A stretch of DNA of 64,000 nt from Terebella lapidaria (taxonomy: Eukaryota; Annelida; Polychaeta; Terebellida; Terebellidae). Position numbers and translations under genes: made by a program. Shown one piece after another: positions 12,252 through 53,358 of this stretch. The stretch lies in NCBI GenBank assembly GCA_949152475.1, contig OX424556.1:1240001-1304000 (forward strand). The letters run 5' to 3'. The notes below the pieces were generated by a model. It was not told where the DNA came from, made no database searches, and saw only the letters and a program-made list of their open reading frames with translations. Every line of letters begins with the position of its first letter. The first letter of the stretch is position 1.

Positions 12252-15200
12252 TCACTGTCCCGATTCTGGCAGGATGACCAGGGTGACGACAGCTGTTAGA
12301 AAGAACAGCGCCAGGATGATCCAGAAGACGAGGCGGTCCAAAGCCGCAGCCACCACGCGCCACTCTATCAGGATCTCCTTGCGCTGGTCCGCGCGCCTGT
12401 GGCGGTCACCTTGGTAACGCACCTCGTGTAGCACACTTGCCAAGGTTGTTTGAATGTCGTCAATGGCTGGGGAGCTTTTATTGTTAGTCGGTTTGTTGTT
12501 GATTGCTTGGATCTCTCTGAGCTTCCTGAGGCTGTCACGTGGTGTGACGTCATCACAGAACGGAACGACACGTGTGCCGCTGCGGTTGAGACCGAGGCTG
12601 ACCATGGCGCGTCTGTTGAGGAGCCAGGCCAGGCGCACGAGACACGTGGACGGTCGCGTGGTCACGTGGTTGTGGTGCAATATCAACACAAACACGGAAC
12701 TCGTCACTGTCAGACACGTCACACCCATAAACGCCGAGATGTAAACAACTGCAAATAATAGATCTATTGAACATGCGCGACTTGATGTGCTTACCTAATG
12801 CTTCTTTACTTTTTCTTACAACATTACCATTCGAAGTGCAGCTCAAATAGATTGTAGGCCAACTTGTTATTGTACTCAGACTCACGTATGATAGGGATTG
12901 CTTCAGATGTGTGTGGAACACTCTCCGACACGGCCAGGATGAAGACAGTGTATGAGAGCAGGAGAGTGACTCCCATAGACATCTTCTCTCCGGAGTCCGG
13001 AGGCAGCCACAGAACCATCAGCACGAGAGCCGTCAGGATCAGGGACGGTACCACGATGTTCACCACGTAGTACAGCGACTTACGCTGGAAGTCAAACACA
13101 AACTGCACCTCGGGGAAGGGGTCGTTCGTGCATCCACAGCACACGTTGTAGTAGCGGTCGATCTGTGTGATCTGAGTGCTGACGATGTCCCACTCGCCGT
13201 TCTGAGCGTAGCTGCTCAGAAGCTCCTCCTCGGCGCAGCTGCGGTACGTCAGATTGATGGCGGTGCTCGAGTAAGCCCAGTTACCGAACACTAGCGAGCA
13301 CTGCTGCTTGTCGAACGGGAAGTACTGAACATTGGAGGCGCACTGAGACTTGAACTCGCCTCCTGGTGTCCAGCCCACGTGACCATCGTACCTCACACTG
13401 ACTCGGCTCAGGGTGTAATGTTCCTCAGTGTACACTACCTCTCCTATACTGCAGGGACAAGTCAGGAATTACAAACAGTCTAACTGCATTGTCAGTATGT
13501 GCACGTTGTGTTGTGTGTTCACACGTTACCTGTTGTAGAGGACAAAGTCTGGTAATACTGTAAACGTACAAAATTTCGCGATGTATTAATTTCGCGAATT
13601 TCGCGTTTGAAAAGAAAACGCGAAAATAAATACACGCGAATACACGATTATTCAATCGGGGGGCCTACGATTCACAACAGTCACGAACGTAAATCCACGC
13701 GAACATGTTGAGATGTTGAAAACGCGAACATTGATACACGCGAATTTTTATACGTTTACAGTATGTGTTGTGTCAGTATGTGCACGTTGTGTTGTGTGAT
13801 CACACGTTACCTGTTGTAGAGGACGAATTCTGGTAATATGTGTTGTGTCAGTATGTGCACGTTGTGTTGTGTGATCACACGTTACCTGTTGTAGAGGACG
13901 AATTCTGGTAATATGTGTTGTGTCAGTATGTGCACGTTGTGTTGTGTGATCACACGTTACCTGTTGTAGAGGACGAAGTCTGGTAATATGTGTTGTGTCA
14001 GTATGTGCACGTTGTGTTGTGTGATCACACGTTACCTGTTGTAGAGGACGAAGTCTGGTAATATGTGTTGTGTCAGTATGTGCACGTTGTGTTGTGTGAT
14101 CACACGTTACCTGTTGTAGAGGACGAATTCTGGTAATATGTGTTGTGTCAGTATGTGCACGTTGTGTTGTGTGTTCACACGTTACCTGTTGTAAAGGACG
14201 AAGTCTGGTAATATGTGTTGTGTCAGTATGTGCACGTTGTGTTGTGTTTACACGTTACCTGTTGTAGAGGACGAAGTCAGGTAATATGTGTTGTGTCAGT
14301 ATGTACACGTTGTGTTGTGTTCACACGTTACCTGTTGTAGAGGACGAAGTCTGGTAATATGTGTTGTGTCAGTATGTGCACGTTGTGTTGTGTGTTCACA
14401 CGTTACCTGTTGTAGAGGACGAAGTCTGGTAATATGTGTTGTGTCAGTATGTGCGCGTTGTGTTGTGTGATCACACGTTACCTGTTGTAGAGGACGAAGT
14501 CAGGTAATATGTGTTGTGTCAGTATGTGCACGTTGTGTTGTGTGATCACACGTTACCTGTTGTAGAGGACGAAGTCAGGTAATGTGTTGTGTCAGTATGT
14601 GCACGTTGTGTTGTGTGATCACATGTTACCTGTTGTAGAGGACGAAGTCAGGTAATGTGTTGTGTCAGTATGTGCACGTTGTGTTGTGTGCTCACACGTT
14701 ACCTGTTGTAGAGGACGAAGTCAGGTAATGTGTTGTGTCAGTATGTGCGCGTTGTGTTGTGTTCTCACACGTTACCTGTTGTAGAGGACGAAGTCTGGTA
14801 ATATGTGTTGTGTCAGTATGTGCGCGTTGTGTTGTGTGATCACACGTTACCTGTTGTAGAGGACGAAGTCAGGTAATATGTGTTGTGTCAGTATGTGCAC
14901 GTTGTGTTGTGTGATCACACGTTACCTGTTGTAGAGGACGAAGTCAGGTAATGTGTTGTGTCAGTATGTGCACGTTGTGTTGTGTGATCACATGTTACCT
15001 GTTGTAGAGGACGAAGTCAGGTAATGTGTTGTGTCAGTATGTGCACGTTGTGTTGTGTGCTCACACGTTACCTGTTGTAGAGGACGAAGTCAGGTAATGT
15101 GTTGTGTCAGTATGTGCACGTTGTGTTGTGTGCTCACACGTTACCTGTTGTAGAGGACGAAGTCAGGTAATGTGTTGTGTCAGTATGTGCGCGTTGTGTT

Positions 15201-18200
15201 GTGTTCTCACACGTTACCTGTTGTAAAGGACGAAGTCTGGTAATATGTTGTGTCAGTATGTGCACGTTGTGTTGTGTGTTCACACGTTACCTGTTGTAGA
15301 GGACGAAGTCAGGTAATGTGTTGTGTCAGTATGTGCGCGTTGTGTTGTGTGCTCACACGTTACCTGTTGTAGAGGACGAAGTCAGGTAATGTGTTGTGTC
15401 AGTATGTGCACGTTGTGTTGTGTGCTCACACGTTACCTGTTGTAGAGGACGAAGTCAGGTAATGTGTTGTGTCAGTATGTGCGCGTTGTGTTGTGTTCTC
15501 ACACGTTACCTGTTGTAAAGGACGAAGTCTGGTAATATGTGTTGCGTCAGTATGTGCACGTTGTGTTGTGTGATCACATGTTACCTGTTGTAGAGGACGA
15601 AGTCAGGTAATGTGTTGTGTCAGTATGTGCGCGTTGTGTTGTGTTTACACGTTACCTGTTGTAAAGGACGAAGTCTGGTAATATGTTGTGTCAGTATGTG
15701 CACGTTGTGTTGTGTGATCACATGTTACCTGTTGTAAAGGACGAAGTCAGGTAATGTGTTGTGTCAGTATGTGCACGTTGTGTTGTGTGATCACATGTTA
15801 CCTGTTGTAGAGGACGAAGTCAGGTAATGTGTTGTGTCAGTATGTGCACGTTGTGTTGTGTGATCACACGTTACCTGTTGTAGAGGACGAAGTCAGGTAA
15901 TGTGTTGTGTCAGTATGTGCGCGTTGTGTTGTGTTCTCACACGTTACCTGTTGTAAAGGACGAAGTCTGGTAATATGTTGTGTCAGTATGTGCACGTTGT
16001 GTTGTGTGATCACATGTTACCTGTTGTAGAGGACGAAGTCAGGTAATGTGTTGTGTCAGTATGTGCGCGTTGTGTTGTGTGTTCACACGTTACCTGTTGT
16101 AGAGGACGAAGTCTGGTAATATGTGTTGCGTCAGTATGTGCACGTTGTGTTGTGTGATCACATGTTACCTGTTGTAGAGGACGAAGTCAGGTAATATGTG
16201 TTGTGTCAGTATGTGCACGTTGTGTTGTGCTCACACGTTACCTGTTGTAGAGGACGAAGTCAGGTAATATGTGTTGTGTCAGTATGTGCACGTTGTGTTG
16301 TGTGTTCACACGTTACCTGTTGTAAAGGACGAAGTCTGGTAATATGTGCTGTGTCAGTATGTGCACGTTGTGTTGTGTGTTCACACGTTACCTGTTGTAA
16401 AGGACGAAGTCTGGTAATATGTGTTGTGTCAGTATGTGCACGTTGTGTTGTGTGATCACACGTTACCTGTTGTAGAGGACGAAGTCAGGTAATGTGTTGT
16501 GTCAGTATGTGCACGTTGTGTTGTGTGATCACACGTTACCTGTTGTAGAGGACGAAGTCAGGTAATATGTGCTGTGTCAGTATGTGCACGTTGTGTTGTG
16601 TGTTCACACGTTACCTGTTGTAGAGGACGAAGTCAGGTAATGTGTTGTGTCAGTATGTGCACGTTGTGTTGTGTGTTCACACGTTACCTGTTGTAGAGGA
16701 CGAAGTCAGGTAATATGTGTTGTGTCAGTATGTGCACGTTGTGTTGTGTGCTCACACGTTACCTGTTGTAGAGGACGAAGTCAGGTAATATGTGTTGTGT
16801 CAGTATGTGCACGTTGTGTTGTGTGCTCACACGTTACCTGTTGTAAAGGACGAAGTCTGGTAATATGTGTTGCGTCAGTATGTGCACGTTGTGTTGTGTG
16901 ATCACATGTTACCTGTTGTAGAGGACGAAGTCAGGTAATGTGTTGTGTCAGTATGTGCACGTTGTGTTGTGTGATCACACGTTACCTGTTGTAGAGGACG
17001 AAGTCAGGTAATGTGTTGTGTCAGTATGTGCACGTTGTGTTGTGTGTTCACACGTTACCTGTTGTAGAGGACGAAGTCAGGTAATGTGTTGTGTCAGTAT
17101 GTGCACGTTGTGTTGTGTGATCACACGTTACCTGTTGTAGAGGACGAAGTCAGGTAATGTGTTGTGTCAGTATGTGCACGTTGTGTTGTGTGTTCACATG
17201 TTACCTGTTGTAGAGGACGAAGTCAGGTAATATGTGTTGTGTCAGTATGTGCACGTTGTGTTGTGTGTTCACACGTTACCTGTTGTAGAGGACGAAGTCA
17301 GGTAATGTGTTGTGTCAGTATGTGCACGTTGTGTTGTGTGTTCACATGTTACCTGTTGTAGAGGACGAAGTCTGGTAATATGTGTTGTGTCAGTATGTGC
17401 ACGTTGTGTTGTGTGATCACACGTTACCTGTTGTAGAGGACGAAGTCAGGTAATGTGTTGTGTCAGTATGTGCACGTTGTGTTGTGTGATCACACGTTAC
17501 CTGTTGTAGAGGACGAAGTCTGGTAATATGTGTTGTGTCAGTATGTGCACGTTGTGTTGTGTGTTCACACGTTACCTGTTGTAGAGGACGAAGTCAGGTA
17601 ATGTGTTGTGTCAGTATGTGCACGTTGTGTTGTGTGATCACACGTTACCTGTTGTAGAGGACGAAGTCTGGTAATATGTGTTGTGTCAGTATGTGCACGT
17701 TGTGTTGTGTGTTCACACGTTACCTGTTGTAGAGGACGAAGTCTGGTAATATGTGTTGTGTCAGTATGTGCACGTTGTGTTGTGTGTTCACACGTTACCT
17801 GTTGTAAAGGACGAAGTCTGGTAATATGTGTTGTGTCAGTATGTGCGCGTTGTGTTGTGTGATCACACGTTACCTGTTGTAGATGATGAAGTCAGGTAAT
17901 ATGTGTTGTGTCAGTATGTGCGCGTTGTGTTGTGTTCACACGTTACCTGTTGTAGAGGACGAAGTCTGGTAATATGTGTTGTGTCAGTATGTGCACGTTG
18001 TGTTGTGTGATCACACGTTACCTGTTGTAAAGGACGAAGTCTGGTAATATGTGTTGTGTCAGTATGTGCGCGTTGTGTTGTGTTCACACGTTACCTGTTG
18101 TAGAGGACGAAGTCTGGTAATATGTGTTGTGTCAGTATGTGCACGTTGTGTTGTGTGTTCACACGTTACCTGTTGTAGAGGACGAAGTCTGGTAATATGT

Positions 18201-20272
18201 GTTGTGTCAGTATGTACACGTTGTGTTGTGTTCACACGTTACCTGTTGTAGAGGACGAAGTCTGGTAATATGTGTTGTGTCAGTATGTGCACGTTGTGTT
18301 GTGTGTTCACACGTTACCTGTTGTAGAGGACGAAGTCAGGTAATGTGTTGTGTCAGTATGTGCACGTTGTGTTGTGTGTTCACACGTTACCTGTTGTAGA
18401 GGACGAAGTCTGGTAATATGTGTTGTGTCAGTATGTGCACGTTGTGTTGTGTGTTCACACGTTACCTGTTGTAGAGGACGAAGTCTGGTAATATGTGTTG
18501 TGTCAGTATGTGCACGTTGTGTTGTGTGATCACACGTTACCTGTTGTAGAGGACGAAGTCAGGTAATGTGTTGTGTCAGTATGTGCACGTTGTGTTGTGT
18601 GATCACACGTTACCTGTTGTAGAGGACGAAGTCTGGTAATGTGTTGTGTCAGTATGTGCACGTTGTGTTGTGTTTACACGTTACCTGTTGTAGAGGACGA
18701 AGTCAGGTAATGTGTTGTGTCAGTATGTGCACGTTGTGTTGTGTGATCACACGTTACCTGTTGTAGAGGACGAAGTCTGGTAATATGTGTTGTGTCAGTA
18801 TGTGCACGTTGTGTTGTGTGATCACATGTTACCTGTTGTAGAGGACGAAGTCAGGTAATGTGTTGTGTCAGTATGTACACGTTGTGTTGTGTGATCACAC
18901 GTTACCTGTTGTAGAGGACGAAGTCAGGTAATGTGTTGTGTCAGTATGTGCACGTTGTGTTGTGTGATCACATGTTACCTGTTGTAAAGGACGAAGTCTG
19001 GTAATATGTGTTGTGTCAGTATGTGCACGTTGTGTTGTGTGATCACATGTTACCTGTTGTAGAGGACGAAGTCTGGCAGCCAGACCATCAGCGGAGACAC
19101 GACGATGTTCTCGAGTCCGTCGTACTGAGCTGGGTCCCAGGTCAGACGCTCGTCTGTCCACCTCTACACGCGGCGGCATGGCAACACGTGAACGGTAGAC
19201 ATGGCAACACGTGAAATGTCCCATTGTAAAACGTGAATTATACACATAGCAATAATTAGAACGTGAACATGGCAACACGTGAAAGGTATAGACATGAGCA
19301 ATGTGAAAGGTAGGCCTAGACACAGCAACATGTGAAACGTAGACGTGGCAAAATGTGAAAGATGGTCATGGCAACACGTGGGAGGTAAACATGGCAACTC
19401 GTGGGAGGTAGCCATAGCAACACGTGACAAGTTAGAAAGCTCAAGCAGCAAAAGTAGCCTTTTTGTTTCCAGAACTCATGAGAACTACTAAGAGCAAGAG
19501 GGGTTGAGCTTGGATATTAATGTTTGATGGGACTTTATTCCTATCCAAACACCCCCACCCTTTGGGCTATTTTGTTGCCACCTCCTTCCTTATCACTCCC
19601 CACTGTATGTTTTTTTTTTCATTTCCTGTGCCATTAACATAAATGAATGTACTTTGCTAGATCTACTTACCACACGCGTACTTACCACACGCGTACTTAC
19701 CACACGCGTACATACCACACGCGTACTTACCACACGCGTACATACCACACGCGTACTTACCACACGCGTACATACCACACGCGTACTTACCACACGCGTA
19801 CTCACCACACGCGTACTTACCACACGCGTACTCACCACACGCGTACTTACCACTCTGAGGTAACCAGACGTCACTAACGTCTCAGTCTTGATGTTCTGAA
19901 ACACGGAGGAATTAATGAACCTTAAGAGAGCATAATACAGACAGGGAATGTGTTCTCTGCAGGTGTCAGGTTTTTAGAGAAGTGTGTAGCAGGCACTGAC
20001 CAGGTCATGTAGCTTGAGGAGTATGTAACTCATGCTGACCGTTGTACTGTTGGACGAGTCTAGTACAGGTCGAGCCACGGAATTGTATCTGCGGAATAAA
20101 TCTTGAAGAAGTCGCTCCTCATCGTTAGCGGCTGTCACTGAAACACAACATTTACACAAAACAAATACATACGCTGGGCCTAATATATTTCTAACGATTT
20201 TTGGATGTGCCAAGAATCCTCACCTACGAGTATTAAGAAATGAATGGTTAAACATAAATAAAATTGTGTCAT
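12252..20272 (-). CDS. Gene A: nicotinic acetylcholine receptor-like subunit, alpha type, complete
   Basis: Six exons: 20272-20224, 20137-20001, 19895-19851, 19163-19054, 13448-12886 and 12748-12252. They join in phase to 466 codons plus stop. The protein has a signal peptide (MTQFYLCLTIHFLILVVTA), a ligand-binding domain, the Cys-loop C150-X13-C164 (ending PFDKQQC), loop B Trp (FGNWAYS, W171), loop C with vicinal cysteines (YYNVCCGC, 217-220), M1 about 242-262, M2 about 268-290 beginning GEKMSMGVTLLLSYTVFILA with the Glu typical of cation channels, M3 about 302-325, a short cytoplasmic loop and M4 (LDRLVFWIILALFFLTAVV). By family it should act as an acetylcholine-gated cation channel subunit in the plasma membrane. 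Oddities: the loop D tryptophan is replaced by Tyr (TSGYLRV), and introns 3 and 4 are largely minisatellite, intron 4 being about 5.6 kb against about 143 bp in genes C and D. Ligand and partners cannot be read from sequence. Confidence 0.9.
13490..19076 (-). repeat. Minisatellite of ~73-bp units, each with a copy of the exon 4 end and its splice donor
   Basis: On the minus strand each unit carries CCAGACTTCGTCCTCTACAA followed by CAG and GTAACGTG. These are the last 23 nt of exon 4 (codons for PDFVLYN) plus the authentic donor, followed by about 45 nt of intron (CACACAACACAACGTGCAC...). Units are 72-75 bp; about 75 copies fill intron 4 from the exon 4 donor (19054) to within ~40 bp of the exon 5 acceptor (13449). 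Common variants are CCA/CCT, CTC/CTT, GAC/GAA and one or two missing bases. One unit near the left end is interrupted by a MITE. Confidence 0.96.
13558..13761. mobile_element. 204-bp Tc1/mariner-type MITE with TA target duplication
   Basis: The ends are inverted copies: CTGTAAACGTACAAAATTTC at the left, and the right end reverse-complemented reads CTGTAAACGTATAAAAATTC, both continuing GCG. The element is flanked by TA (13556-13557 and 13762-13763). Neighbouring satellite units read GGTAATATGTGTTG uninterrupted, which shows the empty site. The interior is rich in CGCGAA words and has no coding capacity. Confidence 0.88.
19178..19440. repeat. Degenerate ~24-bp repeat next to the exon 4 acceptor of gene A
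   Basis: About ten diverged copies of ACATGGCAACACGTGAAAGG followed by TAG occupy the 3' part of intron 3 and stop just before the acceptor of exon 4. Many keep an E-box-like CACGTG. On the transcribed strand the unit reads CTACCTTTCACGTGTTGCCA, and the last copy lies directly before the CGCGTGTAG acceptor. Confidence 0.75.
19666..19850 (-). repeat. 15-bp minisatellite made of the exon 3 splice donor
   Basis: Twelve perfect-length 15-bp units (plus strand CTTACCACACGCGTA) follow directly after exon 3 (which ends at 19851). On the transcribed strand every unit reads GTGTG then GTAAGTACGC. Three units read GTATGT and two GTGAGT; both are still good 5' splice sites. The unit length is a multiple of three and the exon 3 reading frame stays open through the whole array (VVSTR repeats). 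Confidence 0.95.
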
Positions 20273-24517: not shown

Positions 24518-27479
24518 CATGTAAAAATCTTGTGGTATTGGAGATAAGTTGATGTGTTAGTATCAGATATAGGTTTCATGTAATTGTGCTGATATAGAAC
24601 TTGGCCATTTACAGGAGCTGTTGGTTTGCCTGAATGTCTGGCATTTTCACCAAGCTTTCAAATTATGCCGTGGTGAAAATACTAGATCCAAGGATTCGAA
24701 TAATTATTTATTCTATAGGTGTGAACATCGATTTGACTGATCAATTATTCTTTCAATCCACAAGTTATTTCACATGAGCAACAATTTGATGTCTGCATGA
24801 CATACTATTCCACATTAGAGCTTGCCAAGCAATGCTCCTTGAACCAGACTGTACTAGATATTGATGGTTTTGCTGGCTCCTGTGTCTTGACTCTGAATCA
24901 CTCCCCTTGTAGCGGGTTTGTGCAGGTCACGGCTGTGAACACGACGAGAGCCAGCAGAAAGAGCCCGAGGATGACGAAGAAGACGCGGTCTAGTGCAGTC
25001 GCCACAACCCGCCACTGGACCAGTCTCTCCTTGCGGACGTCGGCGCGCTGGTGGCGATCACTCTGGCTCGTCAGCTGACCCAGTACAGCCTGCAGCACCT
25101 GCTCCACGCCACTCGGCTGGACTGCATTCACGGGATTCACAGACTTGGCCTGGACTGACTCCAAGCTGGGCTCGGAAGAGGTCACGTTGTTAGGAGGGCT
25201 TCGGTTCACTGGAACTGGCTCGATACTGGCCAGTGACCTTTTGTTGAAGATTGAAGCCAGGGATAGCAAACAAGCTGGCGGTGGTGTGGTCACGTGACTG
25301 TGGTGCAGGATCAACACCACCACAGAACTCGCCACGGTCAGGCACGTGATCCCCATGACAACCAGCACAAAAATCACTGAATCAACAAGTGAGATATGAC
25401 ACTGGGTTAAACCAGGCTCACCACACAGGGACATACCATTTTCATATTTTATGCTTTAAGTTTGTTAGAACATAATGATCAAATGTACTTGGCACTCACG
25501 GATGATGGGTACAGCCATTGATGTGTGTGGGACACTTTCTGTCAATGCCAGGATGAAGACGGTGAAGGAGAGAAGGAGAGTGACTCCCATAGACATCTTC
25601 TCTCCGGAGTCCGGGGGCAGCCACAGCACCATCAGCACCAGTAAGAAGAGGGTCAGTGACGGGATGATAATAGTCATCGTGTAGTACAGAGGCTTCCTCT
25701 GGAATGACATTCTGAACTCGACCTCAGGGTAAGGTTCCTCGGAGCAGCCACAGCAGTCGTAGTACCGGTTGATCTGTACGATCTCATGACCCACAATCTC
25801 CCACTCCCCATTCACCGGGTAATTCCTGAGAAGGTCGTCCTCGGCACAGCTGCGCAGAGTTGGGTTGATTGCCCTCCCAGTGTACGCCCAGTTACCAAAC
25901 ACCAGCGTACAGTGCTGCCGGTCAAACGGGAAGTATGTGACGTCACTGGCACTACATGTATTAGTATCATATATGTAAAAATCTCGTGGTTTTTTTGCGA
26001 TAAGTCGATGTATTAGTGTCATACATGTAAAAATCTTGTGATTTTGGAGATTTAGTATCAGATATAGGTTTCATGTAAATGTGCTGATATAGAACTCGGC
26101 CATTTAGAGGAGCTGTTCGTTTGCCCGAATGTCTGGCATTTTCTTCGGATATTCTTTAAGTATTTGAGAAGTGTCCAAGTTTCAACCAAGCTTTCAAATT
26201 ATGTGGTGAAAATACTGGATCCAAGGATTCGAAAAAATATTTATTATATAGATGTGAACATCGATCTGACTGATCAATTAATCTTTCAATCCCCAACGTT
26301 TTTCATGGGAGCAACAATCTGATGTCTGCATAACATATTATTCCACATTAGAGCTTGCCAAGAAATGCTCCTTGAACCAGACTGTACTATATATTGATGG
26401 TTTTGCTGGCTCCTGTGTCTTGACTCTGAATCACTCCCCTTGTAGCGGGTTTGTGCAGGTCACGGCTGTGAACACGACGAGCGCCAGCAGAAAGAGCCCG
26501 AGGATGACGAAGAAGAAAACGCGGTCTAGTGCAGTCGCCACAACCCGCCACTCGATCAGTCTCTCCTTGCGGACATCGGCGCGCTGGTGGCGATCACTCT
26601 GGCTCGTCAGCTGACCCAGTACAGCCTGCAGCACCTGCTCCACGCCACTCGGTTGGACTGCATTCACGGGATTGGCCTGGACTGACTCCAAGCTGGGCTT
26701 GGAAGAGGTCACGTTGTTAGGAGGGCTTCGGTTCACTGGAACTGGCTCGATACTAGCCAGTGACCTTTTGTTGAAGATTGAAGCCAGGGATAGCAAACAA
26801 GCTGGCGGTGGTGTGGTCACGTGACTGTGGTGCAGGATCAACACCACCACAGAACTCGCCACGGTCAGACACGTGATCCCCATGACAACCAGCACATAAA
26901 TCACTGAATCAACAAGTGACATATGACATTGGGTTAAACCAGGCTCACCACACAGAGGCATGTCATTTTCATATTTCATGCTCTAACTTTGTCAGTACAT
27001 AATGATCTTATGTGCTTGGCACTCACGGATGATGGGTACAGCCATTGATGTGTGTGGGACACTTTCTGTCACCGCCAGGATGAAGACGGTGAAGGAGAGA
27101 AGGAGAGTGACTCCCATAGACATCTTCTCTCCGGAGTCCGGGGGCAGCCAGAGAACCATCAGCACCAGTAAGAAGAGGATCAGTGACGGGATGATAATAG
27201 TCATCGTGTAGTACAGAGGCTTCCTCTGGAATGACATTCTGAACTCGACCTCAGGGTAAGGTTCCTCGGAGCAGCCACAGCAGTCGTAGTACCGGTTGAT
27301 CTGTACGATCTCATGATCCACAATCTCCCACTCCCCATTCACCGGGTAATTCCTGAAAAGGTCGTCTTCGGCACAGCTGCGCAGAGTTAGGTTGATTGCC
27401 CTCCCAGTGTACGCCCAGTTACCAAACACCAGCGTACAGTGCTGCCGGTCAAACGGGAAGTATGTTACGTCACTGGCAC
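24518..27479. repeat. Tandem duplication of the 3' half of gene C, period ~1533 bp
   Basis: 24518-25952 and about 26022-27479 align along their whole length, covering the 3' flank, last exon, last intron and most of exon 5. The two stop codons are 1533 bp apart (24898 and 26431). Homology ends abruptly at GTCACTGGCAC (25952 and 27479). At the junction (about 25953-26060) a ~50-bp segment (TATTAGTATCATATATGTAA...) is itself doubled. Confidence 0.9.
24898..25952 (-). pseudogene. Gene B: 5'-truncated nAChR-like copy of gene C
   Basis: Two exons remain: 25952-25500 (starting inside the Cys-loop at ASDVTYFPFDRQHC, through loop C RYYDCCGC, M1, M2 and VPHTSMAVPII) and 25376-24898 (M3, cytoplasmic loop, M4, stop). 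Both are open and nearly identical to gene C, with small replacements such as LVQWRVV for LIEWRVV. Exons 1-4 and the first third of exon 5 are missing, so no signal peptide and no complete binding domain can be made. It is best read as a pseudogene from partial tandem duplication. An AATAAA-type signal (complement of TTTATT near 24706) lies downstream, as in gene C. Confidence 0.88.
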
Positions 27480-28608
27480 ACTGGGACTGAAACTGTCCAC
27501 TGGGCTCCCAGATACACTGGCCGTCAGAGAACACTCTCACTCTGACCAGAGTGTAGTGTTCTTCCGTGTACACCTTGTCACCAACCCTGCAATGTGAACA
27601 TGGTGTCAGCAATGACAACTAAGATCGCCCTGCCGACAGATTGGTATGTCGTGTTCCCTGGTATGGGATGCGAGCGCTATGCACATGTATCTGTCGTGTT
27701 GACCCAGGCTGTCCGAGAGTATTGCGCACCTGTTGTAGAGGACAAAGTCAGGCAGCCAGACCATCAGAGGAGACACCACAACCACGTCCAGACTGTCATA
27801 CTCAGTGGCATTCCAGGTCAGCCGCTCGTCCACCCAGCTCTGAGGGGACATATCAAGGGGCTTGTCAATGAGCTTGTGGGGTAATGAAGTAGCATATAAG
27901 ACACAACGACAATGTAGCATACCACTTTGAGAAATCCCGACGTTGTCAGAGTTTCTGTCTTTATACTCTGCAATCAAAGGCGAAAAAATATAGAAAACAG
28001 TTAGAAATGGATACTTTCCGCATGAATAGACTGGTTGTATTAGTATTTAGTAAGCGTCTAGTAGTTTTGTGTGATGTGTTGCACCAGGTCATGAAGCTTG
28101 ATCAGACTGTAACTCAGGTAGACTGTTGTACTAAGGGACGAGTTGATCACAGGCCTAGCCGCCGGACTATAATCCCGGAACAAGTCCTGCATGAGCCGCT
28201 GTTCTGTGTTCTGGGGGTTCGCTGTAAACATGTACAATATACTCATTATGTATTTCTGCCTTTGTAAGTATCATAGTTATAATTGTGTTGACGACTCATT
28301 TCCAGAACATTTCAGGTATAACTATAAACATCAATGTTTTTAGAGAACTATACTAGCCTAAGACTAGAACCTACTGGAATTGAGACCACGTGACGGATTT
28401 GCTGAAAAGAATCCGCTCGCGTTGGATGAACACGCTGATGACAGCAACGAAATATTTATATCTCATAAAAAAATACTCAGATTATTACCATTCATTAGAA
28501 TTTTTTCACACAAGTCCATGTTTTGTTTGGTCAAGCTGGTAGCTCACCTTTTGATGTCAGTAGAACAAAGGGCCATAAGATATCTCTGATCCACATGGCA
28601 TTTGACAT
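26431..28608 (-). CDS. Gene C: nicotinic acetylcholine receptor-like subunit, alpha type, complete
   Basis: Six exons: 28608-28548, 28221-28085, 27967-27923, 27839-27730, 27586-27027 and 26903-26431, in phase, 461 codons plus stop. The first exon gives a signal-like N-terminus (MSNAMWIRDILWPFVLLTSK). Then come NTEQRLMQDLFRDYSPAARP, a loop D region TSGFLKV, loop A (WLPDFVLYNR), the Cys-loop (CASDVTYFPFDRQHC), loop B Trp (FGNWAYTG), loop C (RYYDCCGCSEEPYPEV, about 220-235), M1, a cation-type M2 (GEKMSMGVTLLLSFTVFILA), M3, a short cytoplasmic loop and M4. Exon sizes 2-4 (137, 45, 110) equal those of genes A and D. The exon 2 donor is GTGCAA, a weak site. A polyadenylation-type signal lies near 26240. 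It stands head-to-head with gene D, 1.47 kb apart. Predicted role: acetylcholine-gated cation channel subunit; ligand not proven. Confidence 0.9.
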
Positions 28609-30081: not shown

Positions 30082-32753
30082 ATGAAAGCTGCTCAATATA
30101 TCTTTGTATACCACACAGTATTCTGTGTTGTATACTGCCGCATTCCTGCCTCCGAAACTAGTAAGTATCAGAATTTTTGATTGATTTGTCAAACTGACAT
30201 GAACGCCGTAGGTCGATCACAAATACCTAACTCGCCGAAATATACATATAAAATAGTCCCGATCAGACAGTTCAGATTTCCTCAGGCGTGGTGCAGAACA
30301 CGGAACAGAGGCTGATGCGAGATTTGTTCAGGGATTATAGTCCGGTGGCCAGACCTGTCCTGAACACTTCCTCTAACAGTCTTGTCAACATCAGCTTCGT
30401 GCTCAACAAGCTTCAGGAACTGGTCAGTCTGGCACCATGTAGCGACTGATAAAGGCCTGTGACAGTCGTTAATGACAAGAATTGTGTAGGCTCTGGGAAA
30501 TTTACCGAACGTGCCAGTGAAAATATAGATAATTTGTGTAAGTAGTGTAGGAATGAAGGTGCAAGATGACTTTGCTTGGCCATGTTGAATTTAATTTGTG
30601 AAATCTCATAATTTCAGAATATCAAGACAGAAACCATGACCACATCAGGTTACCTGAGAGTGGTAAGTACAAAAACATCACACACCATCCTGTCAATATA
30701 TTATTACTTTTATTGTTTACAAATAATACTCCTGTGGTGACGACCACTGACCCTGACTACTCTCTCCGGACCCTGACTACTCTCTCTGGAACCTGACTAC
30801 TCTCTCCAGACCCTAACTACTCTCTCTGGACCCTGACTACTCTCTCCGAACCCTGACTACTCTCTCCGGACCCCAACTACTGTCTCCGGACCCCGACTAC
30901 TCTCACCGGACCCTGATTACTGTCTCCGGACCCTGACTACTCTCTCCGGACCCTGACTACTGTCTCCGGACCCTGACTACTGTCTCTGGACCCTGACTAC
31001 TCTTTCCAGACCCTGACTACTCTCTCCGGAACCTGATTACTCTCTCTGGACCCTGACTACTCTTTCCAGACCCTGACTACTCTCTCTGTACCCCGACTAC
31101 TGTCTCCAGACCCTGACTACTCTCTCTGTACCCCGACTACTGTCTCCAGACACTGACTACTCTCTCCGGACCCTAACTACTATCTCTGGACCCTGACTAC
31201 TCTCTCCGGACCCTGATTACTCTCTCCGGACCCGGTCTGTTCCAGTCATGGACAGACGAGCGTCTGACCTGGGACCCGGCTCAGTACGACGGACTCGAGA
31301 ACATCGTCGTGTCTCCGCTGATGGTCTGGCTGCCAGACTTCGTCCTCTACAACAGGTAACGTGCACAAGTTATTGCTACATGCTGTTCGATTGCAACAAC
31401 TAGTAGTGATGTGAATATCTCTGATTGGAGGGTATCAATAATAACCTTGCCTAGAGCAAGAAGGACAGGTTTCACAAAGCCATCCTTATCTTGTGTAGAG
31501 TGGGCGAGGTGGTGTACACGGAGGAACACTACACACTGTGCCGTGTACAGCTGCGCTCGGACGGTGTGTGTCAGTGGGCTCCGGGAGGACAGTTCAAGTC
31601 ACAGTGCCTCAGTGATGTCGCCTACTTCCCGTTCGACAAGCAGCAGTGCTCGCTGGTGTTCGGTAACTGGGCTTACTCGAGCACCGCCATCAATCTGACG
31701 TACCGCAGCTGTGCCGAGGAGGAGCTTCTGAGCAGCTACGCTCAGAACGGCGAGTGGGACATCGTCAGCACTCAGATCACACAGATCGACAGGTCAATTT
31801 ACTATGTCACTTGATATCAGCAAACTCCCCCTCGTACACATTTTGTCTGTGATGTAGTTCCTAATTTGGATGATAAATAAATACCTACAAATCCCTGACG
31901 TTTTGTGAAGCAGGTATTACAACGACTGCTGCGGTTGTACGACGCATCCTTTCCCCGAGGTTCGATTCAATTTCTACTTCCAAAGAAAGTCCCTGTACTA
32001 CAACATGACGATCGTGGTGCCGTCACTGATCCTGTCGGCTCTGGTGCTGATGGTCCAGTGGCTGCCGTCAGACTCCGGAGAGAAGATGTCTATGGGAGTC
32101 ACTCTCCTGCTCTCCTTCACCGTCTTCATCCTGGCGCTGACGGAGAGTGTTCCTCACACATCGGAAGCTGTACCCATTATCTGTCAGTACTAAAGGTACG
32201 ATATTGGATCCTGGTTTTTGATGAGTGTACGATAGGTTGACCTCTCTGTTGTATTGTTGCAGTGATTTACGTGCTGGTGTTGATGGGTATCACGTGCGTT
32301 ACCGTAGCCAGTTCAGTGTTCGTGTTGATCCTGCACCACACCCATATCACCACTCCGCCTCCCGCTTGGCTGCTCAACCTGGGTTGGCTCCTGAACAGCA
32401 AGGCCATGCAGGCCCTCGAGGCTGTACATAGGATCAACGTTCAGCTTGACCGCCTCGAGTCCGGCCAGCGAGTCACCATGAAGACTCTGCACCAGCGCCG
32501 AGCCCTGAAGGTTTGTAACGTGAGCATGGAGCGGGGCGCTAGGGACCCGCTGAGGGGCGTACTGAGGCAGATTCTGGCTGAGTTTCAGTCACAGTCGGAG
32601 CGCAGACACCGCTCGGACCTGCGCAGGGAGCGTCTGATAGAGTGGCGCGTGGTGGCTACGGCACTGGACCGCCTCGTCTTCTGGATCATCCTCGGCCTAT
32701 TCCTCTCGGCTTTTCTCGTCACCATCATCATCGTGCCAATGACAGCACAGTAA
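30082..32753 (+). CDS. Gene D: nicotinic acetylcholine receptor-like subunit, alpha type, complete
   Basis: Seven exons: 30082-30160, 30286-30422, 30618-30662, 31246-31355, 31499-31792, 31914-32182 and 32263-32753, in phase, 474 codons plus stop. Signal peptide MKAAQYIFVYHTVFCVVYC; then NTEQRLMRDLFRDYSPVARP, TSGYLRV, loop A (WLPDFVLYNR), Cys-loop (CLSDVAYFPFDKQQC), loop B Trp (FGNWAYSS), loop C (YYNDCCGCTTHPFPEV), M1, M2 (GEKMSMGVTLLLSFTVFILA), M3, and a ~125-residue cytoplasmic loop with an Arg-rich helix before M4 (LDRLVFWIILGLFLSAFLV). It differs from A and C by an extra intron at QIDR/YYN that splits the long exon 5. Intron 3 carries a 20-bp minisatellite. The last exon is partly repeated downstream. 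By family it is a plasma-membrane cation channel subunit gated by acetylcholine or a related ligand. Confidence 0.92.
30751..31230 (+). repeat. 20-bp minisatellite resembling branch point plus polypyrimidine tract, 24 units
   Basis: Twenty-four exact-length copies of CCCTGACTACTCTCTCCGGA fill intron 3 of gene D and end 15 bp before the acceptor of exon 4. Each unit contains a CTGAC/CTAAC-type word like an animal branch point, followed by a pyrimidine stretch (CTCTCTCC). Variants change the purine of CTGAC or the CCGGA tail. Confidence 0.95.
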
Positions 32754-33410: not shown

Positions 33411-34339
33411 GTGAAAAGCCATCAGTGGATGTATGTCACCAGCTCCATGTGTTACTGGCTACCATATTGGCTGTGTGCCATATTTCGAGCAGCCCTATCC
33501 CTTTTACAAGTACGCATATCTACCTTTTAAGCACCAATTCATAGGAAATACACACAATTGCTAGTAGCGTATGTATTCGCAATCACGATTGTTCACAAAA
33601 ATTAGCCATTGTTCCGTGTTTAAGTTTGTACTATCCAAAAATATAGACTGCCTTTTGTGACATGTAAGATACATACATACTACCATACTATCTCGAGATA
33701 TACTGGCCAAAATATTTTTTTTCTGCGTGGCCCTAACACTCTTCCGTAATTAGGTGTCCAATCCCATAAATATATATTCTTCTACTGTTCCACATAGGAT
33801 TCAAAATAATGTTCCTTCAATGACACAATATACCATTCATCCGGGCGTTTATGGAGAGTAATAATCATTCTGATATACGCCCATGGACCTACAACGCGGT
33901 CTAGAGGGAAATTTCTTCATTCATGGTAAATTTTACATGACAATTAGTGAGATAGACTTTATCCCTGGGACGCAAACGAACCAAATTTAAAAATTTCCCC
34001 GTCAGATAGGTAAGTGCATGTTCCCCATCAGGAGACCGCACCAGATTGTCTCCGAGCAGACTGTGTATAGTTTATTCATGGAGGTAATTTAATTACTGGT
34101 CTTGGTTATAGTTTTACTTTTACGTCTGCTCATTATTTGGGTCTTATGTATCTAAAATCTCGAGTTGCCGGAGAGTGAAGAATCACGCAAGGCCGTGTAG
34201 ATTGTAGATTGTACAGAAGAGGATGAGGGCCACACAACTAAACTCGACTTACGTTTCTTGATTATTTGACTTTTCTCGATATATCGACTTATGACTATGG
34301 CATTTAAAGTACCGGGTACAAGTGAAATGGAGATAGATT
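33411..34339. other. AT-rich spacer of the 1983-bp duplication
   Basis: Non-coding AT-rich DNA with no recognisable gene. It is repeated almost unchanged at about 35386-36304. Confidence 0.5.
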
Positions 34340-34736
34340 GCCTCCCGCTTGGCTGCTCAACCTGGGTTGGCTCCTGAACAGCAAGGCCATGCAGGCCCTC
34401 GAGGCTGTACATATGATCAACGTTCAGCTTGACCGCCTCGAGTCCGGCCAGCGAGTCACCATGAAGACTCTGCACCAGCGCCGAGCCCTGAAGGTTTGTA
34501 ACGTGAGCATGGAGCGGGGCGCTAGGGACCCGCTGAGGGGCGTACTGAGGCAGATTCTGGCTGAGTTTCAGTCACAGTCGGAGCGCAGACACCGCTCGGA
34601 CCTGCGCAGGGAGCGTCTGATAGAGTGGCGCGTGGTGGCTACGGCACTGGACCGCCTCGTCTTCTGGATCATCCTCGGCCTATTCCTCTCGGCTTTTCTC
34701 GTCACCATCATCATCGTGCCAATGACAGCACAGTAA
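34340..34736 (+). pseudogene. Orphan partial last exon of gene D
   Basis: An exact-frame copy of most of the gene D last exon: cytoplasmic loop (PPAWLLNLGWLLNSKAMQAL, with one replacement, VHMINVQL for VHRINVQL), M4 and the stop codon. It lacks the acceptor site and M3, because the 1983-bp duplication starts inside the exon. No promoter or other exons accompany it, so it should be non-functional. Confidence 0.92.
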
Positions 34737-36801: not shown

Positions 36802-36915
36802 GTAAGGTGCGGTATTTGATTTCCTAGGCTATTCCTAGCTATTCCACTGCAATAAGCATAGACGCTAATTAGAAAAAAATGTGCTAAAAACAGCTACAAG
36901 ACGCTATTTTCAGCT

Positions 36916-39900
36916 ATTTATTCTATTCTGGAACGCAGTTTCTCTTGAACTATAGGGCTGCTGGACTCTGCCTTTTTTTGCCCGATTCCTTTGATTTCCA
37001 CATCGTTTGTAATAGCATCTAAAAGCGCTATTTGTTCTATTCTGGAATGTAATTTCTCTTGAACTGTAGGGCTGCTGGACTCTGTAGTTTTTTGCCCGAT
37101 TTCTTGCTTTCTACAGCGTTTCTAATAGCCTCTAAAAGCGCTATTTGTTCTATTCTGGAATGTAATTTCTCTTGAACTGTAGGGCTGCTGGACTCTGTCG
37201 GTTTTTGCCCGATTTCTTGCTTTCTACAGCGTTTCTAATAGCCTCTAAAAGCGCTATTTGTTCTATTCTGGAACACACTTTATCGCAAACTGTAGGGCTG
37301 CTGGACTCTGTCGTTTTGTGCCCGATTCCTTTGCTTTCTACAGCGTTTCTAATAGCCTCTAAAAGCGCTATTTGTTCTATTCTGGACCACAATCTCTCTT
37401 AAACTGTAGGCTGCTGGACTCTGTCGTTTTGTGCCCGATTCCTTTGCTTTCTACAGCGTTTCTAATAGCCTCTAAAAGCGCTATTTGTTCTATTCTGGAA
37501 CACACTTTATCTCAAACTGTAGGGCTGCTGGACTCTGTCGTTTTGTGCCCGATTCCTTTGCTTTCTACAGCGTTTCTAATAGCCTCTAAAAGCGCTATTT
37601 GTTCAATTCTGGAACCCACTTTATCTGAAACTGTAGGGCTGCTGGACTCTGTCGTTTTTTTGCCGATTCCTTTGATTTCCACATCGTTTCTAATAGCCTC
37701 TAAAAGCGCTATTTGTTCTATTCTGGACCACAATCTCTCTTAAACTGTAGGCTGCTGGACTCTGTCGTTTTGTGCCCGATTCCTTTGCTTTCTACAGCGT
37801 TTCTAATAGCCTCTAAAAGCGCTATTTGTTCTATTCTGGACCACAATCTCTCTTAAACTGTAGGCTGCTGGACTCTGTCGTTTTGTGCCCGATTCCTTTG
37901 CTTTCTACAGCGTTTCTAATAGCCTCTAAAAGCGCTATTTGTTCTATTCTGGAATGTAATTTCTCCTGAACTGTAGGGCTGCTGGACTCTGTCGTTTTTT
38001 GCCCGAATTCTTGCTTTGTACAGCGTTTCTAATAGCCTCTAAAAGCGCTATTTGTTCTATTCTGGAATGTAATTTCTCTTGAACTGTAGGGCTGCTGGAC
38101 TCTGTCGTTTTTTGCCCGATTTCTTGCTTTCTACAGCGTTTCAAATAGCCTCTAAAAGCGCTATTTGTTCTATTCTGGAATGTAATTTCTCTTGAACTGT
38201 AGGGCTGCCGGACTCTGTCGGTTTTTGCCCGATTTCTTGCTTTCTACAGCGTTTCTAATAGCCTCTAAAAGCGCTATTTGTTCTATTCTGGAACACACTT
38301 TATCTCAAACTGTAGGGCTGCTGGACTCTGTCGTTTTGTGCCCGATTCCTTTGCTTTCTACAGTGTTTCTAATAGCCTCTAAAAGCGCTATTTGTTCTAT
38401 TCTGGAATGTAATTTCTCTTGAGCTGTAGGGCTGCTGGACTCTGTCGTTTTTTGCCCGATTTCTTGCTTTCTACAGCGTTTCTAATAGCCTCTAAAAGCG
38501 CTATTTGTTATATTCTGGAATGTAATTTCTCTTGAACTGTAGGGCTGCCGGACTCTGTCGGTTTTTGCCCGATTTCTTGCTTTCTACAGCGTTTCTAATA
38601 GCCTCTAAAAGCGCTATTTGTTCTATTCTGGAACACACTTTATCTCAAACTGTAGGGCTGCTGGACTCTGTCGTTTTTTTGCCCGATTCCTTCGCTCTCT
38701 ACAGCGTTTCTAATAGCCTCTAAAAGCGCTATTTGTTCTATTCTGGACCACAATCTCTCTTAAACTGTAGGCTGCTGGACTCTGTCGTTTTGTGCCCGAT
38801 TCCTTTGCTTTCTACAGCGTTTCTAATAGCCTCTAAAAGCGCTATTTGTTCTATTCTGGACCACAATCTCTCTTAAACTATAGGCTGCTGGACTCTGTCG
38901 TTTTTTTGCCCGATTCCTTTGATTTCCACATCGTTTCTAATAGCCTCTAAAAGCGCTATTTGTTCTATTCTGGACCACAATCTCTCTTAAACTGTAGGCT
39001 GCTGGACTCTGTCGTTTTTTGCCCGATTTCTTGCTTTCTACAGCGTTTCTAATAGCCTCTAAAAGCGCTATTTGTTCTATTCTGGAACACACTTTATCTC
39101 AAACTGTAGGGCTGCTGGAATCTGCCTTTTTTGCCCAATTCCTTTGATTTCCACATCGTTTCTAATAGCCTCTAAAAGCGCTATTTGTTCTATTCTGGAC
39201 CACAATCTCTCTTAAACTATAGGCTGCTGGACTCTGTCGTTTTTTTGCCCGATTCCTTTGATTTCTACAGCGTTTCTAATAGCCTCTAAAAGCGCTATTT
39301 GTTCTATTCTGGACCACAATCTCTCTTAAACTGTAGGCTGCTGGACTCTGTCGTTTTGTGCCCGATTCCTTTTCTTTCTACAGTGTTTCTAATAGCCTCT
39401 AAAAGCGCTATTTGTTCTATTCTGGACCACAATCTCTCTTAAACTATAGGCTGCTGGACTCTGTCGTTTTTTTGCCCGATTCCTTTGATTTCCACATCGT
39501 TTCTAATAGCCTCTAAAAGCGCTATTTGTTCTATTCTGGACCACAATCTCTCTTAAACTGTAGGCTGCTGGAATCTGTCGTTTTTTGCCCGATTTCTTGC
39601 TTTCTACAGCGTTTCTAATAGCCTCTAAAAGCGCTATTTGTTCTATTCTGGAACACACTTTATCTCAAACTGTAGGGCTGCTGGAATCTGCCTTTTTTGC
39701 CCAATTCCTTTGATTTCCACATCGTTTCTAATAGCCTCTAAAAGCGCTATTTGTTCTATTCTGGAACACACTTTATCTCAAACTGTAGGGCTGCTGGACT
39801 CTGCCTTTTTTTGCCCGATTCCTTCGATTTACACATCGTTTCTAATAGCCTCTAAAAGCGCTAATTGTTCTATTCTGGAACACAATCTCTCTTAAACTGT

Positions 39901-42900
39901 AGGCTGCTGGACTCTGTCATTTTGTGCCCGATTCCTTTGCTTTCTACAGCGTTTCTAATAGCCTCTAAAAGCGCTATTTGTTCTATTCTGGAACACACTT
40001 TATCTCAAACTGTAGGCTGCTGGACTCTGTCGTTTTGTGCCCGATTCCTTTGCTTTCTACAGCGTTTCTAATAGCCTCTAAAAGCGCTATTTGTTCTATT
40101 CTGGACCACAATCTCTCTTAAACTGTAGGCTGCTGGACTCAGTCTTTTGGTGCCCGATTCCTTTGCTTTCTACAGTGTTTCTAATAGCCTCTAAAAGCGC
40201 TATTTGTTCTATTATGGAATGTAATTTCTCTTGAACTGTAGGGCTGCTGGACTCTGTCGTTTTTTGCCCGATTTCTTGCTTTCTACAGCGTTTCTAATAG
40301 CCTCTAAAAGCGCTATTTGTTCTATTCTGGAACACACTTTATCTCAAACTGTAGGGCTGCTGGACTCTGCCTTTTTTTGCCCGATTCCTTTGATTTCCAC
40401 ATCGTTTCTAATAGCCTCTAAAAGCGCTATTTGTTCTATTCTGGAACACACTTTATCTCAAACTGTAGGACTGCTGGACTCTGTCGTTTTTTGCCCGATT
40501 CCTTTGATTTCCACATCGTTTCTAATAGCCTCTAAAAGCGCTATTTGTTCTATTCTGGACCACAATCTCTCTTAAACTGTAGGCTGCTGGACTCTGTCGT
40601 TTTTTGCCCGATTTCTTTGCTTTCTACGGTGTTTCTAATAGCCTCTAAAAGCGCTATTTGTTCTATTCTGGAATGTAATTTCTCTTGAACTATAGGGCTG
40701 CTGGACTCTGTCGTTTTTTGCCCGATTTCTTGCTTTCTACAGCGTTTCTAATAGCCTCTAAAAGCGCTATTTGTTCTATTCTGGAATGTAATTTCTCTTG
40801 AACTGTAGGGCTGCCGGACTCTGTCGGTTTTTGCCCGATTTCTTGCTTTCTACAGCGTTTCTAATAGCCTCTGAAAGCGCTATTTGTTCTATTCTGGACC
40901 ACAATCTCTCTTAAACTGTAGGCTGCTGGACTCTGTCGTTTTTTGCCTGATTCCTTTGATTTCCACATCGTTTCTAATAGCCTCTAAAAGCGCTATTTGT
41001 TCTATTCTGGACCACAATCTCTCTTAAACTGTAGGCTGCTGGACTCTGTCGTTTTGTGCCCGATTCCTTTGCTTTCTACAGTGTTTCTAATAGCCTCTAA
41101 AAGCGCTATTTGTTCTATTCTGGAATGTAATTTCTCTTGAACTGTAGGGCTGCTGGACTCTGTCGTTTTTTGCCCGATTTCTTGCTTTCTACAGCGTTTC
41201 TAATAGCCTCTAAAAGCGCTATTTGTTCTATTCTGGAATGTAATTTCTCTTGAACTGTAGGGCTGCCGGACTCTGTCGATTTTTGCCCGATTTCTTGCTT
41301 TCTACAGCATTTCTAATAGCCTCTAAAAGCGCTATTTGTTCTATTCTGGAACACACTTTATCTCAAACTGTAGGGCTGCTGGACTCTGGACCACAATCTC
41401 TCTTAAACTGTAGGCTGCTTGAATCTGCCTTTTTTGCCCAATTCCTGGACTCTGGACCACAATCTCTCTTAAACTGTAGGGCTGCTGGAATCTGCCTTTT
41501 TTGCCCAATTCCTTTGCTTTCTACAGTGTTTCTAATAGCCTCTAAAAGCGCTATTTGTTCTATTCTGGAATGTAATTTCTCTTGAACTGTAGGGCTGCTG
41601 GACTCTGTCGTTTTTTGCCCGATTTCTTGCTTTCTACAGCGTTTCTAATAGCCTCTAAAAGCGCTATTTGTTCTATTCTGGAATGTAATTTCTCTTGAAC
41701 TGTAGGGCTGCCGGACTCTGTGGGTTTTTGCCCGATTTCTTGCTTTCTACAGCATTTCTAATAGCCTCTAAAAGCGCTATTTGTTCTATTCTGGAACACA
41801 CTTTATCTCAAACTGTAGGGCTGCTGGACTCTGGACCACAATCTCTGGAATCTGCCTTTTTTGCCCAATTCCTTTGCTTTCTACAGTTTTTTGCCCGACT
41901 TCTTGCTTTCTACAGCGTTTCTAACAACCTCTAAAAGCGCTATTTGTTCTATTCTGGACCACAATCTCTTTTAAATTGTAGGGCTGCTGGACTCTGTCGT
42001 TTTGTGCCCGATTCCTTTGCTTTCTAAAGCGTTTCTAATAGCCTCTGAAAGCGCTAATCGTTCTATTCTGGAACACACTTTATCTCAAACTGTAGGGATG
42101 CTGGACTCTGCCTTTTTTCGCCCAATTCCTTTGATTTCCACATCGTTTCTAATAGCCTCTAAAAGCGCTATTTGTTCTATTCTGGAACACACTTTATCTC
42201 AAACTGTAGGGCTGCTGGACTCTGTCGTTTTTTGCCCGATTCCTTTGATTTCCACATCGTTTCTAATAGCCTCTAAAAGCGCTATTTGTTCTATTCTGGA
42301 CCACAATCTCTCTTAAACTGTAGGCTGCTGGACTCTGTCGTTTTGTGCCCGATTCCTTTGCTTTCTACAGCGTTTCTAATAGCCTCTAAAAGCGCTATTT
42401 GTTCTATTCTGGAATGTAATTTCTCTTGAACTGTAGTGCTGCCGGACTCTGTCGGTTTTTGCCCGATTTCTTGCTTTCTACAGCGTTTCTAATAGCCTCT
42501 TAAAGCTCTATTTGTTCTATTCTGGAACACACTTTATCTCAAACTGTAGGGCTGCTGGACTCTGTCGTTTTTTGCCCGATTCCTTTGATTTCCACATCGT
42601 TTCTAATAGCCTCTAAAAGCGCTATTTGTTCTATTCTGGACCACAATCTCTCTTAAACTGTAGGCTGCTGGACTCTGTCGTTTTTTGCCCGATTTCTTGC
42701 TTTCTACAGCGTTTCTAATAGCCTCTAAAAGAGCTATTTGTTCTATTCTGGAATGTAATTTCTCTTGAACTGTAGGGCTGCCGGACTCTGTCGGTTTTTG
42801 CCCGATTTCTTGCTTTCTACAGCGTTTCTAATAGCCTCTAAAAGCGCTATTTGTTCTATTCTGGAACACACTTTATCTCAAACTGTAGGGCTGCTGGACT

Positions 42901-48900: not shown

Positions 48901-49053
48901 ATTCCTTTGCTTTCCACAGCGTTTCTAATAGCCTCTAAGAGCGCTATTTGTTCTACTTTGGAACGCAGTTTCTCTTGAACTGTAGGGCTGCTGGACTCTG
49001 TCGTTTTTGCCCGATTCTTGTGCTTTCCACGGCGTTTGTATTAGCCTCTAAAG
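36916..49053. repeat. ~114-bp satellite, about 106 units, left arm of the foldback element
   Basis: Unit: GGGCTGCTGGACTCTGTCGT, TTTGTGCCCGATTCCTTTGC, TTTCTACAGCGTTTCTAATA, GCCTCTAAAAGCGCTATTTG, TTCTATTCTGGAACACACTT, TATCTCAAACTGTA. Three tail types (GGAATGTAATTTCTCTTGAA, GGAACACACTTTATCTCAAA, GGACCACAATCTCTCTTAAA) and two middle types (TTTGCTTTCTACAGCG, TTTGATTTCCACATCG) are shuffled. A GGAACGCAGCTTCTCT type dominates the right end (46.7-49 kb), which is also the most diverged part. Many units are 38 codons long, so long spurious ORFs arise in both strands. Confidence 0.96.
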
Positions 49054-50362: not shown

Positions 50363-51156
50363 GTCGCTGGCTATTACAACTGAAACGCATCAGTGATTTT
50401 GGTTTCTCATTTTATACCCGCTGAAACTCCAAAAGGCTGGGGGACTGTGGAGCAAACGCCGAGCCTCTCCGATGAAGGCCGAGTGGTTGTCGGCACAGTG
50501 TTCGGAAACGAGTGGCAAATAATACCGACGGAACACATGTAGCACAACATTTACTTTGTGCCTTTGATTTTTTTTTTACTACAATCTCTTCTTTTTATCG
50601 GGATTGTCCAGCTTTAAGGAAAAATTGTGGCCTGTATAGGCGCGCTCCACCTCAGCGCTTATCCCTTGCATGATCAAAGCGACTGGGGCTTCACCCCTAT
50701 TGTGATCACTACCACTGGCACTTGTTTCAGAGTTATATCAGGTTGTTGTTGTCCTGGCAGCTTGTGTGACCCGTGTTCAGTGAACCGTTAACAGGTAATT
50801 ACATTCTGGGCTTATTGTCCTCTTGCACGCTTTGTAGGCTAATTTACTTCTTAGTCGAGTATTGCTTGACACCGTTCGTTATGTCACCTTATTTTGTTTC
50901 TCGCGTTTCTGATTGTAGTTAATAACATACAGTGCAGACTTCTAGCAATTGTTTTGTGAAAAACTTGCGAGGCCAAAAATGTTTTTGGTGTAAGATTCCA
51001 CAACCACGTTCACGGAATAAGCCGTGTTTTTACCACGTACTGTACATATTGTGTGAAAAGCAAAACATAGCAGCGCTGTAGAGACCCGGAGAATCACAAC
51101 CAAAAACCAGTCCAACGCCTCTGACAGGAAGACACATTCGCTTGAACATTTCATAA
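50363..51156. other. Unique central DNA of the foldback element
   Basis: It lies upstream of the transposase remnant and should have held its promoter. No other ORF or repeat could be recognised. Confidence 0.4.
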
Positions 51157-51164
51157 GTGCCACC

Positions 51165-53158: not shown

Positions 53159-53358
53159 NNNNNNNNNNNNNNNNNNNNNNNNNNNNNNNNNNNNNNNNNN
53201 NNNNNNNNNNNNNNNNNNNNNNNNNNNNNNNNNNNNNNNNNNNNNNNNNNNNNNNNNNNNNNNNNNNNNNNNNNNNNNNNNNNNNNNNNNNNNNNNNNNN
53301 NNNNNNNNNNNNNNNNNNNNNNNNNNNNNNNNNNNNNNNNNNNNNNNNNNNNNNNNNN
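53159..53358. other. Assembly gap, 200 N
   Basis: A run of exactly 200 N, probably a placeholder of unknown true length, directly at the left edge of the 22-bp satellite. The satellite is therefore probably longer than shown. Confidence 0.97.

Follow-up and report, generated by a model that had tools for sequence, protein, structure and literature searches.

The exon 3 donor of gene A, a nicotinic-receptor-like gene of the annelid Terebella lapidaria, is followed by twelve 15-bp units that each begin with a donor, and this array is probably a mirage-type minisatellite that lies in the intron, with the first donor being the one used. The gene is read on the minus strand of contig OX424556.1, within a window of 64,000 nucleotides, which is the whole stretch of DNA that was analysed. 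If splicing proceeds in this way, the exon-side donor at the boundary 19851/19850 would be joined to position 19163, which would give the 45-bp exon 3 of the gene family, and the other 12 donors would be bystanders that are kept alike through repeat homogenisation. The features of gene A are as follows.

20001-20137, minus strand: exon 2, N-terminal part of the ligand-binding domain, joined in frame to exon 3
19851-19895, minus strand: exon 3, 45 bp, NIKTETLVTSGYLRV, placed by sequence reading, the 45-bp exons of paralogues B and C and a gap-free alpha-7 alignment
19671-19850, minus strand: twelve 15-bp units GTRWGTACGCGTGTG with a donor at the start of each, from sequence reading and TRF
19665-19670, minus strand: donor 13, GTAAGT, which closes the exon 3 array on its intron side, from sequence reading
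19177-19436, minus strand: degenerate 23-bp array (TRF, 65% matches), with an edge 14 bases away from where exon 4 begins
19054-19163, minus strand: exon 4, 110 bp, first base 19163
13762-19076, minus strand: array of 71-75-bp units that spans the donor of exon 4, with TACAACAG/GTAAC present 72 times (the slash marks the exon-intron boundary), from TRF and motif reading
12886-13448, minus strand: exon 5, with Pfam Neur_chan_LBD and Neur_chan_memb on ORF 12827-13468
12255-12748, minus strand: exon 6, the last exon read, which joins the open frame of exons 2-6

Joining exons 2-6, with the first donor taken at exon 3, gives a single open frame of 449 residues, and exon 4 starts at 19163, as had been given in a preliminary description of this DNA. 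Pfam finds both the Cys-loop ligand-binding domain (PF02931, Neur_chan_LBD, 6e-24) and the transmembrane domain (PF02932, Neur_chan_memb, 4.8e-16) on ORF 12827-13468, and alpha-7 receptor chains are the top matches of gene A (E 3.2e-64) among the best 60 of 173 matches to PDB sequences. In the translation of exon 5, RYYNVCCG is read as the loop C cysteine pair, which marks alpha subunits of nicotinic receptors. Exon 5 presumably holds the Cys-loop, this cysteine pair, TM1 and TM2, and we take the last exon to hold TM3, the cytoplasmic loop and TM4. Judged from its sequence, gene A is nicotinic-acetylcholine-receptor-like and of the alpha type. A reading of exon 3 one base off, with an apparent stop and a chance match of SGKY to gene C, was rejected since the phase-0 reading NIKTETLVTSGYLRV fits genes B and C as well as alpha-7.

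As the preliminary description had it, the 45-bp exon 3 is followed by twelve 15-bp donor copies. The exon ends in ...CTCAGAGTG, after which come 12 full units and the 13th donor, and TRF detects a period of 15 at 19664-19853, with 12.7 copies, 94% matches and a score of 345; the array spans the boundary 19851/19850 with three exonic bases. The donors start at 19850 and recur each 15 bp to 19670 (n = 13), and GT is kept in 13/13. The 6-mers of donors 1-7 are GTAAGT, GTGAGT, GTAAGT, GTGAGT, GTAAGT, GTATGT and GTAAGT, and those of donors 8-13 are GTATGT, GTAAGT, GTATGT, GTAAGT, GTAAGT and GTAAGT; with GTAAGT coded as A, GTGAGT as G and GTATGT as T, donors 1-13 read A,G,A,G,A,T,A,T,A,T,A,A,A. That the array or its copy number was altered by an assembly error is extremely unlikely: the window is rich in repeats and has a 200-N gap at 53159-53358, but an array of 190 bp whose unit variants can be told apart fits within single reads, and its pattern is orderly.

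The unit had been taken for a copy of exon 3's own donor, and the donor is indeed kept, but the exonic bases common to exon 3 and the unit are only the last three, GTG. The claim that all substituted donors are still good holds for GTGAGT and less well for GTATGT: U1 pairing, computed with the U1 end sequence, is -10.5 to -10.7 kcal/mol for 10 of the 13 donors, GTGAGT included, and weaker (-6.7) for the three GTATGT. As had been noted, no stop interrupts the frame from exon 3 across the 12 units; it ends at a TGA at 19595-19593. When 1 to 12 units are added to gene A, the 449-residue frame is still open and gains 5 residues per unit, which agrees with the earlier proposal that the n-th donor, if used, would add n x 5 residues.

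The exon 3 array itself is beyond chance, but its in-frame look need not be. None of the 45 possible single substitutions of the 15-bp unit creates an in-frame stop, and thus a single step is unable to close its frame. Random 15-mers that start with GTAAGT and end with GTG are open in 0.89 of trials; multiplied by 1/3 for a period that is a multiple of three, this gives a chance of about 0.30 for an in-frame open unit at a donor. The substituted donors are of two kinds that alternate, which suggests perhaps two events, and two substitution events copied as 30-bp pairs would leave this pattern. We considered selection retaining the exon 3 donors and do not claim it, because there are just two kinds of substitution. 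The retained frame and donors, which the preliminary description had singled out as notable, therefore lose that standing, also because donors are kept in the exon 4 array despite truncation.

The exon 4 donor array of the same gene served as a within-gene control. This array crosses the boundary 19054/19053, and TACAACAG/GTAAC is exact in 72/72 copies, with a spacing of 71, 73 or 75 bp and none skipped; its donors run from 19053 to 13810, and a 73rd copy is isolated at 13529. Past the first exon 4 donor the frame reads LYNR and then, one codon on, the stop TAA. Exon 4 donors other than the first truncate the receptor, and 71/72 are thus unusable. Since all 72 are intact although 71 truncate, the intact donors there reflect copying and not use, and intactness within an array is thus no sign that a donor is used. 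It also follows that, if gene A makes a receptor, splicing must take the first of 72 equal donors at exon 4, and the same rule would splice exon 3 at 19851. When the units were cut at an intronic anchor and their columns compared (49/60 intervals used, 11 longer ones dropped), divergence was 0 in the donor 8-mer compared to 0.046 in the rest of the unit, with 10/57 eight-base windows equally low; the donors are not singled out by column conservation, and weak constraint on them is possible. The usual unit of this array is TTCGTCCTCTACAACAG/GTAAC, in which a pyrimidine-rich stretch, an AG and a donor stand together, which makes recursive splice points conceivable; that the units act as such could in principle be so, and the idea is speculative.

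Two paralogues in the window provide a second comparison for exon 3.

about 28.2-26.4 kb, minus strand: gene B, paralogue, with a 45-bp exon 3 at 27923-27967
about 30.3-32.75 kb, plus strand: gene C, paralogue, with a 45-bp exon 3 at 30618-30662

Exon 3 has the same length, 45 bp, in all three genes, and exon 2 of genes A and B shares 66.7% amino-acid identity over the matched stretch. In genes B and C exon 3 also ends in GTG, followed by the donors GTATGC (B) and GTAAGT (C). In neither of these two paralogues did TRF report an array at this donor, and thus no conservation of the array in relatives was found within the window. The 45-bp exon of the paralogues bears on a further reading, in which the last, intron-side donor is used and the receptor always carries 60 extra residues. 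The frame is open for 12 units, and SRSF1 can favour intron-proximal donors in human cells, in the part of that study available to us (PMC5585400), but the paralogues and the gap-free alpha-7 fit at the first donor speak against it and the same rule, if it held for exon 4 too, would abolish the protein; we regard this reading as barely credible.

Gene D (24901-26070, minus strand) is a tandem copy of gene B, in which no match was found for exons 2-4 or for the start of exon 5, and a partial copy of the gene C last exon lies at 34326-34733 (plus strand). The tryptophan of alpha-7 loop D is replaced by Tyr in gene A (19851-19895, minus strand), by Phe in gene B (27923-27967, minus strand) and by Tyr in gene C (30618-30662, plus strand). 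Exon 4 of gene A (19054-19163, minus strand) and exon 4 of gene C (31246-31355, plus strand) are 96% identical on opposite strands, and in exon 5 a stretch of about 150 bases is 98-100% alike, with 0.56 to 0.94 in the other 50-base windows. Elsewhere genes A and C are less alike (exon 2 61%, exon 3 73%, exon 6 58%), and blastn gave no match between their introns 3 and 4. The near-identical exon 4 and exon 5 blocks look like gene conversion. In addition, exon 5 of gene C is split by an extra 121-base intron (31793-31913, plus strand) with CAG/GT at both ends, and genes A and B are uninterrupted at this place; a recent intron gain in gene C is possible.

In the PDB sequence alignment the insert point of gene A follows GYLRV and precedes RWTDE, the counterparts of IWLQM and SWTDH in alpha-7, and gene A joined at the first donor shows no gap across the 3/4 junction when compared to four alpha-7 chains among the matches listed. 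From the parts of two structural studies available, strand beta-2 includes loop D (PMC8510392), and residue 58 of this strand is a reference point opposite loop C (PMC3174232). Placed on this alignment, exon 3 inserts would fall within the binding domain in strand beta-2, a few residues past loop D, where an extension by 5 to 60 residues would probably impair binding or assembly. By our own count the insert point is presumably no more than 1-2 residues from residue 58.

This position argues against the length switch that the preliminary description had proposed, in which the use of several exon 3 donors is regulated or depends on the allele and the repeat number sets receptor length in 5-residue steps (of the VSTRV type) within strand beta-2. 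Paralogues B and C, with their plain exon 3 donors, argue against it as well, and so does retention of frame and donors that is expected without selection. In its favour are the GT of every donor and the frame that stays open with any number of units added. In human segmental duplications, as far as the available part of the report goes, internal tandem repeats at exon-intron boundaries may either be retained in the exon or be removed by splicing, and 66% of intron modifications also have repeat-retaining transcripts (PMC2812944), so that a length-variant reading keeps some room. We consider the switch very unlikely, and give slightly less credence to the fuller version, a copy-number-variable donor ladder that yields receptor lengths differing by five residues beside the agonist site, the mixture being shifted by somatic or allelic repeat changes. 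What stands of the earlier interpretation is the frame-keeping 5-residue step and the existence of amphioxus precedents in print; the analysis yielded no sign that the array serves as a length switch.

These precedents confirm that donor-spanning minisatellites are known from amphioxus, and they are cited here from the portions of the papers that were available. Mirages are minisatellites at exon-intron boundaries, described in amphioxus Adh3 and in the globins BflGb6 and BflGb9, with units of 10-72 bp in Adh3 and 150-160 bp in the globins, many of which carry AG/GT signals; their length is reported to be unstable and regular splicing to be undisturbed (PMC3087553). The exon 3 and exon 4 arrays of gene A are likewise tandem repeats across a splice junction, their units (15 and 71-75 bp) are comparable in length, and they bear splice signals, GT at exon 3 and TACAACAG/GTAAC at exon 4, in every copy. 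Unlike mirages, the exon 3 array includes just three exonic bases, and its unit is a multiple of three with an open frame. Lancelet PGBD5 carries repeats at splice sites, with units of 60 and 108 bp; the first copy abuts the 5′ splice site, copy number varies between assemblies, and the authors suggest that splicing is unaffected (PMC3902484). The exon 3 array shares with PGBD5 the first repeat abutting the 5′ splice site and a unit that is a multiple of three, but the PGBD5 units are longer and imperfect. The human boundary minisatellites resemble the length-switch reading of exon 3 in that copy number can alter transcripts, but they are transcript-supported and read mainly as new introns, and the part of that report at hand describes no array of strong donors (PMC2812944). 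No published donor ladder of the exon 3 kind was recognised among the literature matches listed, and the available parts of papers on amphioxus huntingtin (PMC2206037) and vertebrate receptor introns (PMC6354393) held nothing decisive for the exon 3 array.

First-donor use at exon 3 is thus suggested by the exon 4 array, by the paralogues and by the reports of undisturbed splicing at mirages. The site itself does not favour donor 1, since its U1 pairing is no better than that of donors 2-5, 7, 9 and 11-13. Position alone is not decisive either, since in human cells SRSF1 favours intron-proximal donors and hnRNP A1 intron-distal ones, according to the same partly available study (PMC5585400). 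The choice might be caused by exon definition or by enhancers within exon 3, and both this cause and the origin of the array are points that we infer. The equal pairing of 10 of the 13 donors also favours leaky use, in which the first exon 3 donor is dominant and downstream donors are used as low-level noise. Such products, being in frame through the array, would escape nonsense-mediated decay and would be tolerated, and the amphioxus globin paper, in the part available, sees mirage copies as potential cryptic sites (PMC3087553). We consider leaky use unlikely, and retain first-donor splicing as the probable reading.

To determine how arrays relate to splice junctions across the window, 18 merged arrays from 38 TRF rows were compared to 29 junctions of genes A-D placed from motifs. 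Array edges lay within 25 bases of 4/29 junctions, which was matched by 64/5000 random placements, and within 15 bases of 3/29 junctions, matched by 70/5000; at a tolerance of 5 bases the result was not significant (1/29, matched by 818/5000). The junction set comprised all but the exon 1 junctions, the last-exon acceptors of genes B and D and the other junctions of gene D, and the exon 2 donor and last-exon acceptor of gene C were placed one base off. An earlier run with 25 junctions, several of them 1 to 5 bases off, gave 4/25 at 25 bases (38/5000). One of the edges belongs to a 20-bp array in gene C and lies 13 bases away from where exon 4 begins. When just three arrays, the one in intron 3 of gene C and the two in intron 3 of gene A, were placed at random within their own introns, the 3 touched junctions gave P values of 0.003 (15 bases) and 0.011 (25 bases). 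Taken together, these results show that tandem arrays recur at splice junctions of these receptor genes at 15 and 25 bases, and not significantly at 5.

Other repeats of the window include satellite-like 113-114-bp repeats over about 12 kb (36913-49052), a 348-bp array at 51109-51936 and a 114-bp array at 55242-57040. A 44-bp array at 59192-61643 (plus strand) holds CCAG/GTAAAT in 46 places; no gene was recognised beside it among the few nearby ORFs scanned, and the one at 58373-58663 had no Pfam match.

Gene A therefore has two donor-spanning arrays whose units differ. The exon 3 array is in frame and has 13 donors, the exon 4 array has 72 and just the first of these is workable, and together they form a natural test of how a single donor is chosen among many equal ones. 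If the first donor is used at exon 3, position or exon context would override site strength; if it is not, gene A would be a source of length-variable receptors.
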